This document shows, in pieces, positions 177 through 56,012 of a DNA stretch of 64,000 nucleotides. The stretch lies in assembly GCF_947487575.1 (NCBI RefSeq), contig NZ_CANKXG010000010.1:1-64000 (forward strand). The letters run 5' to 3'. The DNA is from an uncultured Algibacter sp. (GTDB lineage: Bacteria > Bacteroidota > Bacteroidia > Flavobacteriales > Flavobacteriaceae). The position numbers were made by a program, and so were the translations under genes. Each line of letters opens with the position of its first letter. Position 1 is the stretch's first letter. The notes beneath the pieces were generated by a model. It did no database searches, was not told where the DNA came from, and worked only from the letters and a program-made list of their open reading frames with translations.

Positions 177-1739
177 CTAGAATTTAATAGCGAATCCGGT
201 ATAAACACCAATAAAAAATGGTGAAAAATTACCAGAAGTATTATTAAACGTATTGAATTGATATTTAAATATAGGTTCTAAATTCAAATCGAATTTTTTA
301 GAAACCTTATAGTTTAAACCCAATCCAAAGTTTGCACTATAGCTTATATCATTTATATTGTTAGCTTCACCTAGAAATGTTCTAGCACCATTATCTTCTT
401 CAGAAAAAATTTCATTATTATTTAAAAAGAATGAGCTAAAACCTCCAATAAGATTAACTCCAAATTTCTTATCAGAAAGGGTGTATTGAATTTCTAAAGG
501 AATTTCAATATAACCCAAAGCTTGATTAATTGATGCATTTGTTGATGCAAAAGATTTAGGAGTATTCTTTAAAGTTTCAGTGCTAATTACAGAAATATCA
601 TCGGCGTTACTACGAGAACTAACATTCTGTAAAGCACTACTATTAGATGTTAGTCCTACTGATTGGAAAACAGCAACATCATTAGTATTATAGCCTAAGT
701 TAACTCTGTTAATACCAGAACGTATGCTTAATTTTTTATTTATAGCATAACTAGCAGAAATACCGTAACTCATATTAACCTCACCAGATTTAGAATTACT
801 GCTAAATTGTGGGTCTATAGATGAGCCTTCTCCTAAAGAATTAAAATAAACAGGGGCTGCATTAGTTGCAACACTCCATCTATGCCCTAATTTACTGTTC
901 TCTTCTTCAAGAACATCTTTGGTTTTATTTAATACATCTTCAATAGAACGATTATTTTCTTCGGTGGTTACTTTGTCTTTTAATTCTTCAATCTTTTCAT
1001 TGTCTGAATTTGCAATAGCTGAATTGTCTTTTGAAGTTTCGGTAATAAGTGTTTTGGCTTTTTCTTTGGAAACTAGCTTAACTTCACTTTTTGCGTCAAC
1101 AGATTCGTTTTTTTCTTCTACGGAATTAGCAACAGTAATGTTGTTTTCTAATTCTTTTTGAATGTTTTTAGCTTTATTTTTTTCTTCAGATAAATTATTA
1201 GCAATGCCATTATTGTTTCTTGGAGTAATAATGCTTTTCTTGATATTTAATTTATCAGATGACGTTAAATTCGTTTTACTCTCATTCTGATTTTTTGAAG
1301 CAGAAGTTTCAGCAATTGAAGTTTCTTTAGAAGATTCAATATTATCGGTTATTACTTCAGGTTGAGTATTAGCATTTGAATTTTCATTAGAATCATTTTG
1401 AGAATTATCATCTGAAACAATAACATTAGTTTTAACGGCTTTATTTGTTGCGTCGTTATCTTTTACTTCATTGTACTCAGGAATTACATTTTCACTATCA
1501 ACAACTTGGTTAGTTGAACTTTCGTCTGAATTATTAAAAAAGAAGTTACCGATAGTTAAAAGGAGTAATAATAATGCTGCAACACCAGCATAACGCCACC
1601 AAATAGGAATAACACGACGTTTTTTCTTTTTCTCGTTGAGTTGATCTTCTATATTTTTCCATACAGCATCGCTAGGAGTGGCTTCAAAATCTTTGAACCC
1701 TTCCTGAAATAATCTGTCTATATGTTTCTTATCGTTCAT
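177..1739 (-). CDS. Anti-sigma-like protein with C-terminal outer-membrane beta-barrel
   Basis: This 520-residue protein has four visible parts. Residues 1-44 are a charged cytoplasmic head containing PSDAVWKNIEDQL, a pattern common at the N-terminus of Bacteroidota anti-sigma-like proteins. A membrane helix follows at about 46-68 (VAALLLLLLTIG). Residues 70-290 are low-complexity and rich in Asn, Ser, Glu and Lys. From about 295 alternating aromatic strands resemble an outer-membrane barrel (PF13568-like), ending in a C-terminal Phe typical of BAM substrates. Its ATG directly abuts the TAA of the ECF sigma gene, indicating translational coupling. Inference: it restrains the sigma factor and reports on the outer membrane. 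I assigned the family from architecture, not from a search. Confidence 0.75.
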   Translation of the reverse strand: MNDKKHIDRLFQEGFKDFEATPSDAVWKNIEDQLNEKKKKRRVIPIWWRYAGVAALLLLLLTIGNFFFNNSDESSTNQVVDSENVIPEYNEVKDNDATNKAVKTNVIVSDDNSQNDSNENSNANTQPEVITDNIESSKETSIAETSASKNQNESKTNLTSSDKLNIKKSIITPRNNNGIANNLSEEKNKAKNIQKELENNITVANSVEEKNESVDAKSEVKLVSKEKAKTLITETSKDNSAIANSDNEKIEELKDKVTTEENNRSIEDVLNKTKDVLEEENSKLGHRWSVATNAAPVYFNSLGEGSSIDPQFSSNSKSGEVNMSYGISASYAINKKLSIRSGINRVNLGYNTNDVAVFQSVGLTSNSSALQNVSSRSNADDISVISTETLKNTPKSFASTNASINQALGYIEIPLEIQYTLSDKKFGVNLIGGFSSFFLNNNEIFSEEDNGARTFLGEANNINDISYSANFGLGLNYKVSKKFDLNLEPIFKYQFNTFNNTSGNFSPFFIGVYTGFAIKF

Positions 1740-2291
1740 TTATAATGATTGAGAACGTTGTGTTGTTTTATATTCTTCTATAGTTTGCTTCAAAATTTGT
1801 CTAGCTCGTGCTAAATTGGATTTTGAGGTTCCTATGTTTATTTCTAGCATATCAGCTATTTCTTTATGCGAATAACCATCTAGTACATATAGGTTAAAAA
1901 CCAACCTGTATCTATCTGGCAATTCTTGAATGATTTTTAAAAGGTAATCAATGGTAACTTCGTCTTCATCAACTTCCAATTCAACATCTTCAATTGTATT
2001 TTCATTTATTATATCAAAAACCTTTTCGTTTCGGTAACGTTGTAATACGGTGTTTACAGTAATACGTTTTATCCAACCCTCAAAAGAGCCTTTGTTTTTA
2101 TACTGTTCAATTTTTTTAAAGATTGTTAAAAATGCGTCTTGCAAATTATCTTCTGCTTCGGCATAGTTTCGTGAATACTTTAAGCATATAGCAAATAATT
2201 TACTCGAAAAGAGTTTATATAATTCGCCTTGTGCTTTAGTATCATTAATTTTACAATTTTCTATGAGTTGTTTTAAACTCAACTTAAACAT
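1740..2291 (-). CDS. ECF-type RNA polymerase sigma-70 factor
   Basis: This 183-residue protein has the two ECF domains. Region 2 (about 20-90) includes AEDNLQDAFLTIFKKI and the -10 recognition part GSFEGWIKRITVNTV. Region 4 (about 115-175) includes ELPDRYRLVFNLYVLDGYSH and the helix-turn-helix KEIADMLEINIGTSKSNLAR. It is the middle gene of a three-gene operon: lipoprotein 14 bp upstream and the anti-sigma-like barrel protein starting at the next base. The operon promoter at 2760-2789 has an ECF-like layout, so autoregulation is likely. The family call is firm; the signal it responds to is unknown. Confidence 0.92.
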   Translation of the reverse strand: MFKLSLKQLIENCKINDTKAQGELYKLFSSKLFAICLKYSRNYAEAEDNLQDAFLTIFKKIEQYKNKGSFEGWIKRITVNTVLQRYRNEKVFDIINENTIEDVELEVDEDEVTIDYLLKIIQELPDRYRLVFNLYVLDGYSHKEIADMLEINIGTSKSNLARARQILKQTIEEYKTTQRSQSL

Positions 2292-2305: not shown

Positions 2306-2719
2306 TTACTCCGTTACGGGCACTTCAATAGTTAAATATTGATTTTCACCATCAATATCTTCACCTTGCCAAAATTTAAAAATATAAGAACCATTGCTGG
2401 TTACTTTAAAATTAAATGTTGCTTCTATTAAGTTGTCCTCTTCTAGAGTTTCACAATCGTTGTCATCAAAAACATACGTTATTGGTGCAACGGTTCGTTG
2501 ATTGTTCTCTTTTAAATAATAAAACTCTCTAAAGTTATGACAGTTTGATGGCCTTAAATACGACACTGTAATGGGATAAATTTCACCTAACATAAACTCG
2601 TCAGGAATATCCACACTTTCTACTGGTAAAACTTCAAAACTATAGCTCGTACCATCGTCATCAATACTACAAGATGCACAAATTATAAGTGTTAAGCAAA
2701 GTACTAGTAATTTTTTCAT
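2306..2719 (-). CDS. Small lipoprotein, first gene of the sigma operon
   Basis: This 137-residue protein has a lipoprotein signal peptide with lipobox ICASC, so the mature protein would start at about Cys16. The rest is acidic and predicted beta-rich, with two Cys in the mature part that could pair; I recognise no named domain. It is the promoter-proximal gene of the operon lipoprotein-sigma-barrel, 14 bp before the sigma gene. Its ATG lies about 40 bp after the ECF-type promoter. Inference: it is an envelope output or a sensor partner of the sigma system. Confidence 0.7.
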   Translation of the reverse strand: MKKLLVLCLTLIICASCSIDDDGTSYSFEVLPVESVDIPDEFMLGEIYPITVSYLRPSNCHNFREFYYLKENNQRTVAPITYVFDDNDCETLEEDNLIEATFNFKVTSNGSYIFKFWQGEDIDGENQYLTIEVPVTE

Positions 2720-2759: not shown

Positions 2760-2789
2760 TAGATGCGATATAGGTAAAAAGGTTGCGTA
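2760..2789 (-). promoter_or_regulatory. ECF-type promoter of the sigma operon
   Basis: On the minus strand TACGCAACC (2789-2781) is followed by 14 bases and then GCATCTA (2766-2760). The same pair with the same spacing occurs at 4009-4038 and 55984-56012. A CAAC-type -35 with a -10 about 14-16 bases later is the usual ECF layout. The ATG follows 40 bp after the -10. Confidence 0.75.
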
Positions 2790-2866: not shown

Positions 2867-3874
2867 TTATTGTTCATCTACTAGTTTTCTAACCTTGGCT
2901 TCAAGCTCGTCCATGAGTTCTGGATTGTCTTTTATTAATGCTTTAACAGCATCTCGCCCTTGTCCTAGCTTGGTATCGTCATAACTAAACCAGGAGCCGC
3001 TTTTCTTTACAATTTCATGTTCTACGGCTAAGTCTAAAATTTCACCAACTTTTGATACGCCTTCGCCATACATAATGTCAAACTCTGCTAGCCTAAACGG
3101 TGGAGCGACTTTGTTTTTAACCACTTTTACACGGGTTTTGTTACCCATAACATCGCCATCTGTACTTTTTATTTGTGTAGAACGACGAATATCTAAACGT
3201 ACTGAAGCGTAGAATTTTAAGGCATTACCACCAGTAGTGGTTTCTGGGTTACCAAACATAACACCAATTTTTTCACGCAATTGGTTAATGAAAATTACCG
3301 TACAATTAGTTTTACTAATGGATGCTGTAAGTTTTCTTAAGGCTTGAGACATTAAACGTGCATGCAGCCCCATTTTAGAGTCTCCCATTTCGCCTTCAAT
3401 TTCACTTTTCGGTGTTAAGGCTGCAACAGAATCGATTACAACTATATCAATAGCTCCAGAACGGATTAGGTTATCGGCAATTTCTAAGGCTTGCTCACCA
3501 TTATCTGGTTGAGAGATAATTAAATTATCAATATCTACCCCTAATTTTTCAGCATAAAAACGATCAAAAGCGTGCTCTGCATCAATAAATGCTGCAATAC
3601 CACCAGCCTTTTGAGCTTCTGCAATGGCATGTAGAGTTAATGTTGTTTTACCAGAAGATTCGGGTCCATAAATTTCTACTACACGACCACGAGGGTAACC
3701 ACCAACGCCTAAGGCAATGTCTAAACCTAAAGAACCAGATGGGATAGCGTCGACATCAACTACAGCGGCATCACTCATTTTCATTACGGTACCTTTTCCG
3801 TAGGCTTTGTCTAGTTTATCTAATGTTAGTTTTAATGCTTTTAATTTTGCTTCTTTTTCTTTATCGCTGCTCAT
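2867..3874 (-). CDS. recA: Recombinase RecA
   Basis: This 335-residue protein is full length for RecA. It shows Walker A GPESSGKT at residues 70-77, the Walker B region [12 protein letters not shown], the loop with [17 protein letters not shown], and the second DNA-binding loop with [16 protein letters not shown]. It forms filaments on single-stranded DNA, drives strand exchange and promotes LexA-type self-cleavage where a LexA exists. It is monocistronic with its own terminator right after the stop. The upstream region to 4353 is shared with divergent trhO. Confidence 0.99.
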
Positions 3875-4008
3875 TTCTTTATTTTTTTCTGAAAAATTGT
3901 ATGCTAAAGTACTATAAGTTTTTTCATGTTACAATAATAGTTTTCAACATAAATGAATGAAGTTAAAAATACGTAATTGAGTATCCAAAAAAATAAATGA
4001 TTGATTAA

Positions 4009-4038
4009 TACGCAACCTTTTTCAAAAATTTGCATCTA
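4009..4038 (+). promoter_or_regulatory. ECF-type promoter with no ORF behind it
   Basis: TACGCAACC (4009-4017), a 14-base spacer and GCATCTA (4032-4038) match the sigma operon promoter in both boxes and in spacing, including the TTTTT after the first box. It points to the plus strand into 4045-4147. Confidence 0.72.
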
Positions 4039-4044
4039 GTAAAG

Positions 4045-4147
4045 AAAGAGGAAAAAATTTGCTATCAAATTTGCCAAATGAGTTTTGATATATAACTAAC
4101 TCTAAACTCAACTAAAAGCACCTAAATAATTATTTAGGTGCTTTGTT
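4045..4147 (+). ncRNA. Candidate ECF-dependent small RNA
   Basis: From the expected start at about 4045 a transcript would run about 100 nt to the palindrome at 4115-4144. The longest ATG frame inside (4078-4095) has only 5 codons, so it is unlikely to be coding. It contains two copies of AAATTTGC 12 bases apart, upstream of the terminator. The layout (sigma-type promoter, short non-coding body, strong terminator) is that of sigma-dependent sRNAs such as the sigma-E RNAs of enterobacteria. This is inference; the ends are estimates. Confidence 0.5.
4115..4144. terminator. Perfect 30-base palindrome, probable terminator
   Basis: AAAGCACCTAAATAA is followed directly by its exact reverse complement. 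As RNA it folds into a hairpin ending in CUUU. It lies between divergent genes, so it ends neither recA nor trhO; the plus-strand ECF promoter at 4009 gives it a purpose. Confidence 0.7.
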
Positions 4148-4200
4148 ATTTCAAAACACCTGCTAGACTGCTGTTTTTACTGCTGATTGCGGACTTACCC

Positions 4201-4280
4201 GCGCTAGGGATAGTAGAGGAAAGCCCACAGCGCAGCGAGGACTTGTAACGGATAGCCCGACCCTTTTTTGGGTAGCGCCC
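4201..4280 (+). repeat. Dispersed structured element, copy A
   Basis: It starts GCGCTAGGGAT and ends AGCCCGACCC, a T-loop, then GGGTAGCGCCC. GCGCTA pairs with TAGCGC, and ACCC with GGGT. Three further copies are at 36445-36595 (+), 43619-43705 (-) and 55417-55586 (-). It is the shortest copy and lies 73 bp before trhO. Confidence 0.7.
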
Positions 4281-4353
4281 TAATTTTTATAATGATTTAG
4301 AAGTTGTACTTTTGCATTTCAAAATATTCTTATAAACTTAAAATTAGTATAGC

Positions 4354-5421
4354 ATGCAACTGTACAATACCTTAAGCGCAAAGGAAAGAGCTGAATTAAT
4401 CGAGAAAGCCGGAAAGGATCGATTAACACTTTCTTTTTATCAGTACGCTAAAATTAAAAATCCGCAAGAACTTAGAGACAAATTATTTATTACTTGGAAT
4501 AGCTTAGATGTTTTAGGGCGTATTTATGTGGCCAATGAAGGCATTAATGGCCAATTATCGTTACCAGCTGATCGTTTTGTTGAATTTAAAACACATTTGG
4601 ACACCATTGATTTTTTGAAAGACATTCGTTTAAACATTGCTGTGGAGCAGGATAATATGTCCTTTTTAAAGTTGAAAGTAAAAGTGCGACATAAAATTGT
4701 TGCTGATGGTTTAGATGATGATACTTTTGATGTAACTAATAAAGGAGTTCATGTTGGTGCAGATAAGTTTAACGCCCTTATTGAAGATGAAAAAACTGTT
4801 TTGGTTGATATGCGAAATCATTATGAAAGTGAAATAGGGCATTTTAAAAACGCGGTAACTCCTGACGTAGATACATTTAGAGAGTCTTTAGATATAATTG
4901 AAGACGATTTAAAGAATCACAAAGAAGACAAGAATTTGGTAATGTATTGTACCGGCGGAATACGCTGTGAAAAGGCAAGTGCTTATTTTAAACATAAAGG
5001 TTTTAAAAATGTATATCAGCTAGAAGGTGGTATTATTGAGTATACGCGACAGGTGAAAGATCAAGACTTAGAAAATAAGTTTTTGGGCCAGAATTTTGTG
5101 TTTGATGAAAGGCGTGCAGAGCGTATAAGTGATGATGTAATTGCTCAATGCCACCAATGTGGAGAACCTTTTGATACGCATAGTAATTGTGCAAATGATG
5201 CTTGCCATTTATTATTTATACAATGTGACACCTGTAAAGCCGAAATGAACAATTGTTGTTCTACTAATTGCAAAGAGATTCATGCTTTACCTTTTGAAGA
5301 ACAGAAAGCACTTAGAAAAGGGCAAGGGAATAGTAATGATATCTTTAAGAAAGGTCGTGCCGACCATTTGCCTTATAAAAAAGACTTGAGGAATATTTTT
5401 GAAAGTTTTAAAAAGGGATAA
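4354..5421 (+). CDS. trhO: Oxygen-dependent tRNA uridine(34) hydroxylase TrhO
   Basis: This 355-residue protein has the TrhO (YceA) layout: an N-terminal UPF0176 acylphosphatase-like domain, a rhodanese domain at about 135-235 with the active-site loop YCTGGIRCEKAS (Cys199), and a C-terminal Cys-rich zinc-like part (CHQCGEPFDTHSNCAND, CDTCKAEMNNCC). TrhO makes 5-hydroxyuridine at tRNA position 34 using O2. It is followed 17 bp later by trhP, which makes the same modification by another route, and then by a ferredoxin gene. Assignment is strong. Confidence 0.95.
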   Translation: MQLYNTLSAKERAELIEKAGKDRLTLSFYQYAKIKNPQELRDKLFITWNSLDVLGRIYVANEGINGQLSLPADRFVEFKTHLDTIDFLKDIRLNIAVEQDNMSFLKLKVKVRHKIVADGLDDDTFDVTNKGVHVGADKFNALIEDEKTVLVDMRNHYESEIGHFKNAVTPDVDTFRESLDIIEDDLKNHKEDKNLVMYCTGGIRCEKASAYFKHKGFKNVYQLEGGIIEYTRQVKDQDLENKFLGQNFVFDERRAERISDDVIAQCHQCGEPFDTHSNCANDACHLLFIQCDTCKAEMNNCCSTNCKEIHALPFEEQKALRKGQGNSNDIFKKGRADHLPYKKDLRNIFESFKKG

Positions 5422-29444: not shown

Positions 29445-29610
29445 ATGACTGTAAGCTATTAAGTACAATTATAGGTATAAATATTTAAATTTTGCATAAT
29501 ATAATTTAGTAATGGATTAAAGGGAAATAAATGGCTATGAAATCAATTTAACTAACTATTGCATTTAAAAATGAAATTAATTTTTTAACTTTAACGAGAG
29601 AAAATAAAAC

Positions 29611-43618: not shown

Positions 43619-43705
43619 GGGCGTTACCCACAAGGGGTCGGGCTTTTCGTTGCAATCTTTTTATTCGTGCCTCACAAAAAGGATTTCCACTACAATCCCT
43701 AACGC
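43619..43705 (-). repeat. Dispersed structured element, copy C
   Basis: On the minus strand it reads GCGTTAGGGATTGTAGTGG at one end and AAAAGCCCGACCCC then GGGTAACGCCC at the other. GCGTTA pairs with TAACGC, and an inner hairpin is formed by AATCCTTTTTGTG and the opposing AAAAAGATT. It lies 6 bp after the hemJ stop in opposite orientation. Confidence 0.75.
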
Positions 43706-43791
43706 ATCTATCCGCTAGCTGCAGTTTTTTAAATCACCTTGTAGTGTCTTTGGTTTGATTATTGCTATATTTATTGAATCATAATTTCTGA

Positions 43792-55416: not shown

Positions 55417-55586
55417 GGGTGTTCCCTTAAAACGCTTATGGCGTTATAAGGTCAGGCTATCTACTATATCTTTCTGCGAAGCAGTCTCGAACTTGCTTCG
55501 GGATCTTTCAATTAATAAGCCTATGCTTTACAGAAAAATATAAGTTCAAAACTTCGCATAAAGGATGCCGTTTCTATCCTTAACAC
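55417..55586 (-). repeat. Dispersed structured element, copy D (diverged)
   Basis: On the minus strand it begins GTGTTAAGGATAG and ends GATAGCCTGACC then GGGAACACCC. The closing stem is GTGTT/AACAC, where copies A-C have GCGYT/ARCGC, so the pairing is kept despite changes. An inserted palindromic fragment (GAAGCA and TGCTTC) sits in the middle. It starts 11 bp beyond the lipoprotein stop and fills most of the gap between two minus-strand genes. Confidence 0.6.
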
Positions 55587-55597
55587 AAAGTATAGTA

Positions 55598-55969: not shown

Positions 55970-55983
55970 AATTTTTTTTAAAA

Positions 55984-56012
55984 AGATGCTATAAATTCAA
56001 ATAGGTTGCGTA
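55984..56012 (-). promoter_or_regulatory. ECF-type promoter before a lipoprotein gene
   Basis: On the minus strand TACGCAACC (56012-56004), 14 bases, GCATCT (55989-55984). The ATG at 55969 is only 14 bp after the -10 box, so the leader is very short. Confidence 0.7.

Follow-up and report, generated by a model that had tools for sequence, protein, structure and literature searches.

What is transcribed between recA (2867-3874, minus strand) and trhO (4354-5421, plus strand) in an uncultured Algibacter sp., and on what would it act? An earlier note on this DNA had placed a candidate small RNA under the control of an ECF sigma factor in the gap between the two divergent genes. We analysed this locus within the window (the whole stretch of 64,000 nucleotides), in the remainder of its genome and in its relatives. 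The features discussed below, among them a second small RNA that we call X, are compiled in Table 1.

Table 1. Location of the predicted RNA, of the sigma operon and of associated elements, with the basis of each assignment
Feature	Position	Strand	Basis
Anti-sigma-like protein (Dma-like)	177-1739	-	Domain search; conserved hydrophobic segment
ECF sigma factor	1740-2291	-	Pfam/NCBIfam: generic ECF sigma
Lipoprotein-like gene (137 aa) at the head of the operon	2306-2719	-	Start region ranks first of 53 for X pairing
ECF promoter of the sigma operon	2760-2789	-	Second perfect match to the pattern
ECF-sigma promoter of the RNA, TACGCAACC-N14-GCATCTA	4009-4038	+	Pattern search; relatives; identity with the sigma-operon promoter
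Predicted RNA of ~100 nt	4045-4147	+	5' end from promoter spacing, 3' end from terminator
Conserved leader, predicted X pairing site	4050-4069	+	18 predicted pairs; 4058 and 4066 mismatched
ACTAACTC, second conserved element of short peptide-less forms	4095-4102	+	Kept in most short forms
Intrinsic terminator: stem-loop of a perfect 30-base palindrome	4115-4144	+	Fold; relatives; compensatory changes
Sigma-A-type -7 box TACTTTTG before trhO, past the terminator	4307-4314	+	TAnnTTTG in relatives
Third ECF promoter in the window, two mismatches to the pattern	55983-56012	-	Upstream of a 123-aa lipoprotein-like gene
sRNA X, own-genome copy (outside the window)	G000:C2:79747-79843 = L234:1458-1554	-	Covariance model; fold

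The promoter of the RNA is identical to that of the nearby sigma operon at 16 of 16 fixed bases. A search with the pattern TACGCAACCTTTTT-N9-GCATCTA, allowing up to three mismatches, returned three matches in the window compared with 0.00 expected from 100 shuffles, and six in the 3.5-Mb genome compared with none for a backward control. The operon behind the second match encodes a 137-aa lipoprotein-like protein, the ECF sigma factor and a 520-aa anti-sigma-like protein. As this operon shares the same promoter, the sigma factor that reads the RNA promoter is most likely the one encoded in it, ~1.7 kb away. Among relatives, represented by 80 loci with a sigma-factor homologue (the best 80 of 440 confirmed), the sigma-gene promoter was present at up to three mismatches in 80/80, and a second promoter on the opposite strand, diverging from recA, was found in 75/80 and lacking in five. 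The identity of the two promoters and their joint presence in 75/80 loci predict that the RNA promoter is recognized by the ECF sigma factor.

The anti-sigma-like protein consists of a short N-terminal domain, one hydrophobic segment (assigned by eye), a long linker and a C-terminal outer-membrane beta-barrel-like domain, the last of which matched OMP_b-brl_2 at 25.8 bits, just under the curated cut-off of 27. A search for a homologous solved structure found none. The remaining four promoter matches in the genome precede two lipoprotein-like genes and two hydrophobic ORFs of 28 and 33 residues; ECF promoters ahead of lipoproteins and of such one-segment small ORFs perhaps delineate a regulon of small membrane proteins and lipoproteins. 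These ECF promoters lie at G000:C2:94867, 107075 and 260185, and at the third site of the window.

Downstream of the promoter, the longest ORF starting with ATG is MSFDI, and the palindrome, an inverted repeat whose arms are 100% reverse complementary, lies 76 bases past the promoter. It folds as a stem-loop followed by GUUAUU, with a fold z-score of -4.85 for 4009-4170. A hairpin with a T-run ended all 76 of 76 transcripts (the window included; loci from the best 80 of 440). A weak hairpin with a T-run also arose in 210/228 shuffles; the terminator score reached at least 14.5 in 75/76 transcripts compared with 4/228 shuffles, the one weak terminator being that of L013. The terminator stems of relatives moreover carry compensatory pairs. 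What the earlier note had read from the letters of this locus is thus borne out: a plus-strand ECF-type promoter, a perfect 30-base palindrome about 75 bases further on with no ORF of more than five codons in between, a position between divergent genes and, in the palindrome, a predicted terminator for another transcript. It had also staked the RNA on relatives retaining promoter and palindrome, and most of them do, with the divergent promoter in 75/80 and the terminator hairpin in 76/76.

Across 31 short forms of the RNA that encode no peptide (2 of 33 such forms, L040 and L085, were dropped, and gaps counted as mismatches), mean pairwise identity was 0.63 for the RNA and 0.81 for the promoter, the latter partly by construction because the loci were found through the promoter, compared with ~0.05 for the ~65 bases immediately upstream and 0.23 for the 70 bases that follow. 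An Rfam scan of 4009-4147 revealed no family at the gathering score, the best sub-threshold match being ncr1015 (26.2 bits, cut-off 60), and a DNA query with the window RNA returned no second copy, only its own palindrome and one terminator-like match. Together, promoter, terminator and comparative data argue for a separate, terminated short RNA under predicted ECF-sigma control in an envelope-sigma circuit of Flavobacteriia.

Two observations concern the surroundings of the RNA. Matches to Flavo-1 (RF01705) occur at 4193-4266 (plus strand; 34.8 bits, cut-off 42), 43632-43713 (minus strand) and 55446-55588 (minus strand), the first and third just downstream of ECF-promoter transcripts. On the 5' side of recA, a block at ~3904-3940 has many columns at 0.8-1.0 identity in 31 relatives and is probably a promoter or operator of recA.

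Within the RNA, the leader holds a conserved element of the composition GG-AAA-TTGCTATGAAA, which many relatives read as AAAGTGGGAAAATTTTGCTATGAAA and the window as GGAAAAAATTTGCTATCAAA. Its core TTGCTRTSAAA, in which the S admits the AUC of the window, was found with at most one mismatch in 49/53 peptide-less transcripts (20/20 long and 29/33 short forms) compared with 0.07% of shuffles. The leader contains ATG or GTG in 62/76 transcripts, and its conservation could in part be due to a start codon. We rejected a conserved upstream ORF as the sole cause, since some members of the window's clade read ATC and no common sequence was apparent in the short ORFs. Strings resembling TTGCTATGAAA also occur at an equal offset in 20/81 sigma-operon UTRs; their absence at that offset from the other 61/81 led us to discard the idea that the leader belongs to every mRNA of the regulon.

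The complement of the leader points to a second RNA. A search of the own genome with TTGCTATGAAA gave ten exact matches compared with one for the control, and one of the ten lay downstream of dnaJ, in a stretch with 87-98% identity over 119-201 bases in 8/9 same-genus genomes searched. This stretch contains X. On the dnaJ strand, the sigma-A-type box TATATTTG precedes a 5' hairpin, a linker that stays single-stranded and the terminator CCCAUCC...GGGUGGG with U after it; the fold z-score is -8.55. A covariance model (R3) matched X in 258/299 genomes of the family at E <=0.01, mostly as a single copy; in an order-wide draw, X was matched in 15/196 genomes at E <=1e-4, every one of them from this family. 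In one genus (g127), 15 of the 17 listed members gave no match. dnaJ lay beside X in 30/30 stretches examined. In an alignment of 51 copies, composed of the top 30 of the 258, a further 20 whose genomes carry the leader and the G001 copy, nine helix pairs were changed on both sides and 99.0% of cells were paired, a value that 0/500 shuffles reached, with the alignment itself fitted to the model. The linker, UUUUCUUUUUCAUAGCAAUUUUUUUCCC, contains CAUAGC and varied only in the lengths of its U-runs among these 51 copies. Overall, the conserved sigma-A-like box, the structure, the terminator and the compensatory changes support X as a predicted sRNA gene. An Rfam scan of the own-genome copy returned nothing near the gathering score (Rfam 15), and X is apparently uncatalogued.

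The X linker is the reverse complement of the RNA leader. In 47 genomes with both sequences (of 92 strong-leader genomes, picked from the best matches of either model), leader and linker paired with a mean energy of -23.7 kcal/mol compared with -9.5 for dinucleotide-shuffled leaders, and in all 47 at most one of 40 shuffled leaders paired equally well. When folding of both partners was counted, the means were -12.9 and -6.0, and for 36/47 leaders none of 12 shuffles was as good. Among the transcripts of the locus set, in whose selection the leader played no part, 72/76 paired at -14 or below with the linker of their own genome, the remaining four being L016, L040, L043 and L085; the background from 741 gene starts had a mean of -7.1 and a 1% quantile of -15.2. 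Mean pairing was -20.1 for the short peptide-less form, -25.7 for the long peptide-less form and -26.0 for form P. The seven leaderless deep loci failed to pair, six of them at -5.3 to -8.6 and the seventh at -12.4. A strong match to promoter and leader (E <=8.3e-10) was accompanied by X in 91/92 genomes (G082 being the one without) compared with 167/207 others.

In the 73 leaders that were aligned (73 of 76 rows; L040, L043 and L085 were left out), 777/803 core cells pair with X, and opposite one U of X there are 58 A and 15 G and no other base. The 43 departures from the leader consensus comprise 20 that keep the pair and 23 that break it, ten of the latter at the G of AUG, so that the pattern of changes follows only partly what pairing predicts. 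Because the X linker does not vary, co-variation between the two RNAs is not visible. The window copy itself pairs more weakly, at -17.0 kcal/mol, a value reached by 5/1000 shuffles and by 28/10,660 stretches of the window. In its clade, AUC replaces the AUG or GUG of most other relatives, which breaks a central pair; with folding counted, the energy was -8.1 compared with -5.7, with 1/12 shuffles as good, and the predicted cofold favours a shifted, A/U-rich pairing to GCUAUC. For this reason, the pairing may be weakening in the window's clade. Judged from complementarity, the RNA would have the hallmark of a sponge, an extended match to the predicted seed of another sRNA, in weaker form in the window's clade. 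The second conserved element, ACTAACTC, showed no complementarity to the X linker by eye; a string resembling it follows the peptide stop codon in the long forms (also by eye).

The invariance of X suggests many further targets. Among 53 gene starts of the window, that of the sigma-operon lipoprotein was the best match to X (-16.1 compared with a mean of -6.6). Across relatives, 19/75 lipoprotein starts fell under the 5% quantile of the background for X pairing where ~4 are expected, in a count for which 6/81 starts were not located and the species are related and hence not independent. A separate candidate target lies at 29521-29570 (plus strand) of the window, in the 5' region of a gene for a 945-aa secreted-looking protein: its sequence GGGAAATAAATGGCTATGAAATCAATTTAACTAACT combines an X site with ACTAACT, that is, both elements of the ECF-controlled RNA, and its duplex with the X linker (-21.6 kcal/mol) is among the best of the window's stretches.

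The longer transcripts of relatives encode a peptide of ~30 residues (28-30) with the consensus MKFFKKTIxxNALGVSVxVxxNSNCKADGG. In the recA-divergent transcripts L010-L089, it has a basic start, a hydrophobic middle, a late cysteine and the ending NSxCKADGG, and is perhaps a minimal lipoprotein or membrane peptide; a Pfam search with it gave no family (best E 0.09). The peptide was matched in 60/299 genomes of the family at E <=0.01, the weakest of these matches being doubtful, and was not found in the window's genome (best E 0.55). Seven distant loci were also inspected. In five (L198, L199, L201, L202 and L203), a peptide match follows an ECF-like promoter after 22-32 bases and there is no leader; in L197 and L200, the match is farther from such a promoter.

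To follow the peptide through the lineage, we used a tree of RecA, sigma factor and TrhO, built by a quick method with 27/85 forks weak, on which the seven distant loci were set by hand as peptide-bearing. It holds 30 loci with the peptide, 20 long and 33 short forms without it and five loci without the promoter. At least four changes of peptide state are forced by the starred branches, and in the best tree the loci without the peptide fall into 20 maximal clades. Thus, many lineages, that of the window included, have no peptide and have kept promoter, leader and terminator. As 49/53 peptide-less transcripts keep the leader core, something besides the peptide maintains the RNA. Among 49 tabulated genomes with both peptide and leader, the peptide begins at the leader ATG, within the X site, in ten and downstream of it in the other 39. 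Because of these ten, an early role of the site could have been repression of the peptide by X.

On balance, we consider it somewhat more likely than not that the locus encodes an ECF-induced RNA of ~100 nt which acts as a decoy, or sponge, for X and which evolved from a peptide mRNA targeted by X. Promoter identity, the terminator, conservation, X as a structured RNA gene, the complementarity and the loss of the peptide are the sequence-level support for this reading. In the mechanism that we infer, the anti-sigma-like protein would release the sigma factor, which would transcribe both its own lipoprotein-sigma-anti-sigma operon and, from the equal promoter, the RNA. In the cell, the RNA leader would then base-pair with the X linker UUUUCUUUUUCAUAGCAAUUUUUUUCCC and titrate X. 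As the linker could cover start codons of the GCUAUGAAA type, including that of the first gene of the sigma operon in part of the clade, titration would relieve the mRNAs covered by X, and capture of X would favour expression of the sigma operon in a positive loop. The RNA would descend from the mRNA of the ~30-residue peptide, whose start codon X could cover in part of the genomes; the peptide would have been lost repeatedly, with promoter, X site and terminator retained.

The main competing explanation keeps X as the regulator and sees in the RNA no more than a target of X, which would cover the start codon of the peptide mRNA; the peptide-less forms would be functionless left-overs. The ten peptides that start inside the X site and the family-wide presence of X with a sigma-A-like box agree with it. 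However, 53 transcripts without the peptide have retained their promoter, leader and terminator through four or more changes of state and in up to 20 clades, whereas a dead remnant should have decayed to the identity of its flanks (about 0.05-0.23). We therefore regard this explanation as unlikely.

A decoy for X also has to be weighed against a direct repressor of outer-membrane or other mRNAs, comparable to RybB or MicA in the kind of control and in size, with the leader or AAATTTGC as its seed. The earlier note had leaned this way, taking two copies of AAATTTGC in a possibly single-stranded region for target-pairing sites. Both copies are indeed present (4055-4062 and 4067-4074), but in the predicted fold the two stretches form a stem (4055-4061 against 4066-4072), which leaves neither of them single-stranded. 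Only 2/76 transcripts, those of the window and L010, carry the repeat in two exact copies. The pairing search against outer-membrane 5' regions that the note had suggested gave little. Of 31 Plug matches in the own genome, 29 supplied a TonB-receptor start (one lacked a locus and another a usable start), and the duplex energies of the RNA with these 29 equalled those of the shuffled RNA (-15.49 compared with -15.27 +/- 0.68). Seven-base complements of AAATTTGC were found in 5/29 receptor starts compared with 1/47 other genes (backward words, 2/29 and 2/47), a weak excess for which several words were tried, and no eight-base complement was matched. The 20-base complement with three mismatches had 15 matches in the own genome, 14 besides the RNA itself, compared with eight for the control. 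The exact 13-base complement of the leader was not enriched in 36 leader-bearing genomes: of 43 matches, 15 were the RNA itself, and the 28 others compare with 34 backward controls. Only 4 of these 28 lay near an ORF start, none of them shared, and the 28 include two pairs of orthologous coding sites. Given these results, a direct repressor seems distinctly improbable.

More improbable still is a cis-acting leader of trhO, in which the ECF promoter would read through a regulated terminator. Strand and order of the elements agree with such an attenuator, and in Flavobacterium psychrophilum the YceA/trhO homologue has a transcription start site of the sigma-ECF type (SM6), as has the putative regulatory RNA Rfp11 (PMC9723704); this fits an ECF-type start near trhO. 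Against an attenuator, the word TAnnTTTG lies between terminator and trhO in 60/69 loci (its reverse in 3/69), other ORFs intervene in L034, L039 and L073, and trhO was not found in the stretch of L068 and L077. As the sigma-A-type box lies downstream of the terminator, trhO probably has its own promoter. Finally, the joint occurrence by chance of a promoter-like string and another gene's terminator can be practically dismissed, since, common as sigma-type motifs and weak terminators are, no promoter match is expected at random, the promoter is kept in relatives and the strong terminator with its compensatory changes is rarely seen in shuffles.

For the ECF-induced decoy of X, we give a wider formulation about an even chance of being right: a core Flavobacteriaceae sRNA without an Rfam 15 match at the gathering score would be controlled by an ECF-sigma-induced decoy that arose when a peptide mRNA under the control of X lost its ORF on several occasions (from mRNA to dual-function RNA to pure sponge) and that is tied to a Dma-like, outer-membrane-sensing sigma system. 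In an open-access literature search, no paper came up that dealt with an RNA from the recA-trhO gap, with a dnaJ-adjacent sRNA in flavobacteria or with a sponge under ECF control in Bacteroidota. Little of the small-RNA circuitry of this phylum has been mapped. Bacteroides has no obvious Hfq or ProQ homologue (PMC7366714). Bacteroides thetaiotaomicron has the Dma/Das system of a dual membrane-spanning anti-sigma and an ECF21 sigma factor (PMC13088901). As here, the ECF sigma factor adjoins an anti-sigma that appears to span from the cytosol to an outer-membrane barrel; in contrast, the accessible part of that report makes no mention of a small RNA, and the sigma factor described here matches only generic ECF profiles. 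If our reading is true, the phylum gains an envelope-stress sigma factor whose effect on one RNA is exerted through a second, and its genomes offer a natural series for the change of an mRNA into a regulatory RNA. The analysis also names an sRNA that most of the sampled genomes in a large family possess, and the region through which it is likely to pair.

RybB, MicA and MicL of Escherichia and Salmonella are sigma-E-dependent sRNAs and share with the RNA a short, terminated transcript made, here by prediction, from an envelope-stress ECF sigma factor. The sigma-E-like circuit put forward in the earlier note is supported as regards the predicted control and not as regards the target: the RNA has no Rfam match, and its best-supported partner is an sRNA rather than omp or lpp mRNAs. 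SgrS/SgrT is a dual-function RNA and, like the RNA in part of its lineages, unites base pairing with a small ORF in a single molecule; in our case, the ORF was lost repeatedly and the pairing element kept. Closest in predicted action are the enterobacterial sponges and decoys, namely the ChbBC trap for ChiX, SroC for GcvB, and 3'ETS-leuZ and RbsZ for RybB. Here too, the main predicted partner is an sRNA, and the chbBC trap is itself an mRNA. Unlike these sponges, the RNA described here has its own ECF-sigma promoter, belongs to Bacteroidota, faces in X an sRNA without an Rfam match at the gathering score, and comes with a comparative series that leads from a peptide mRNA to a peptide-less RNA.
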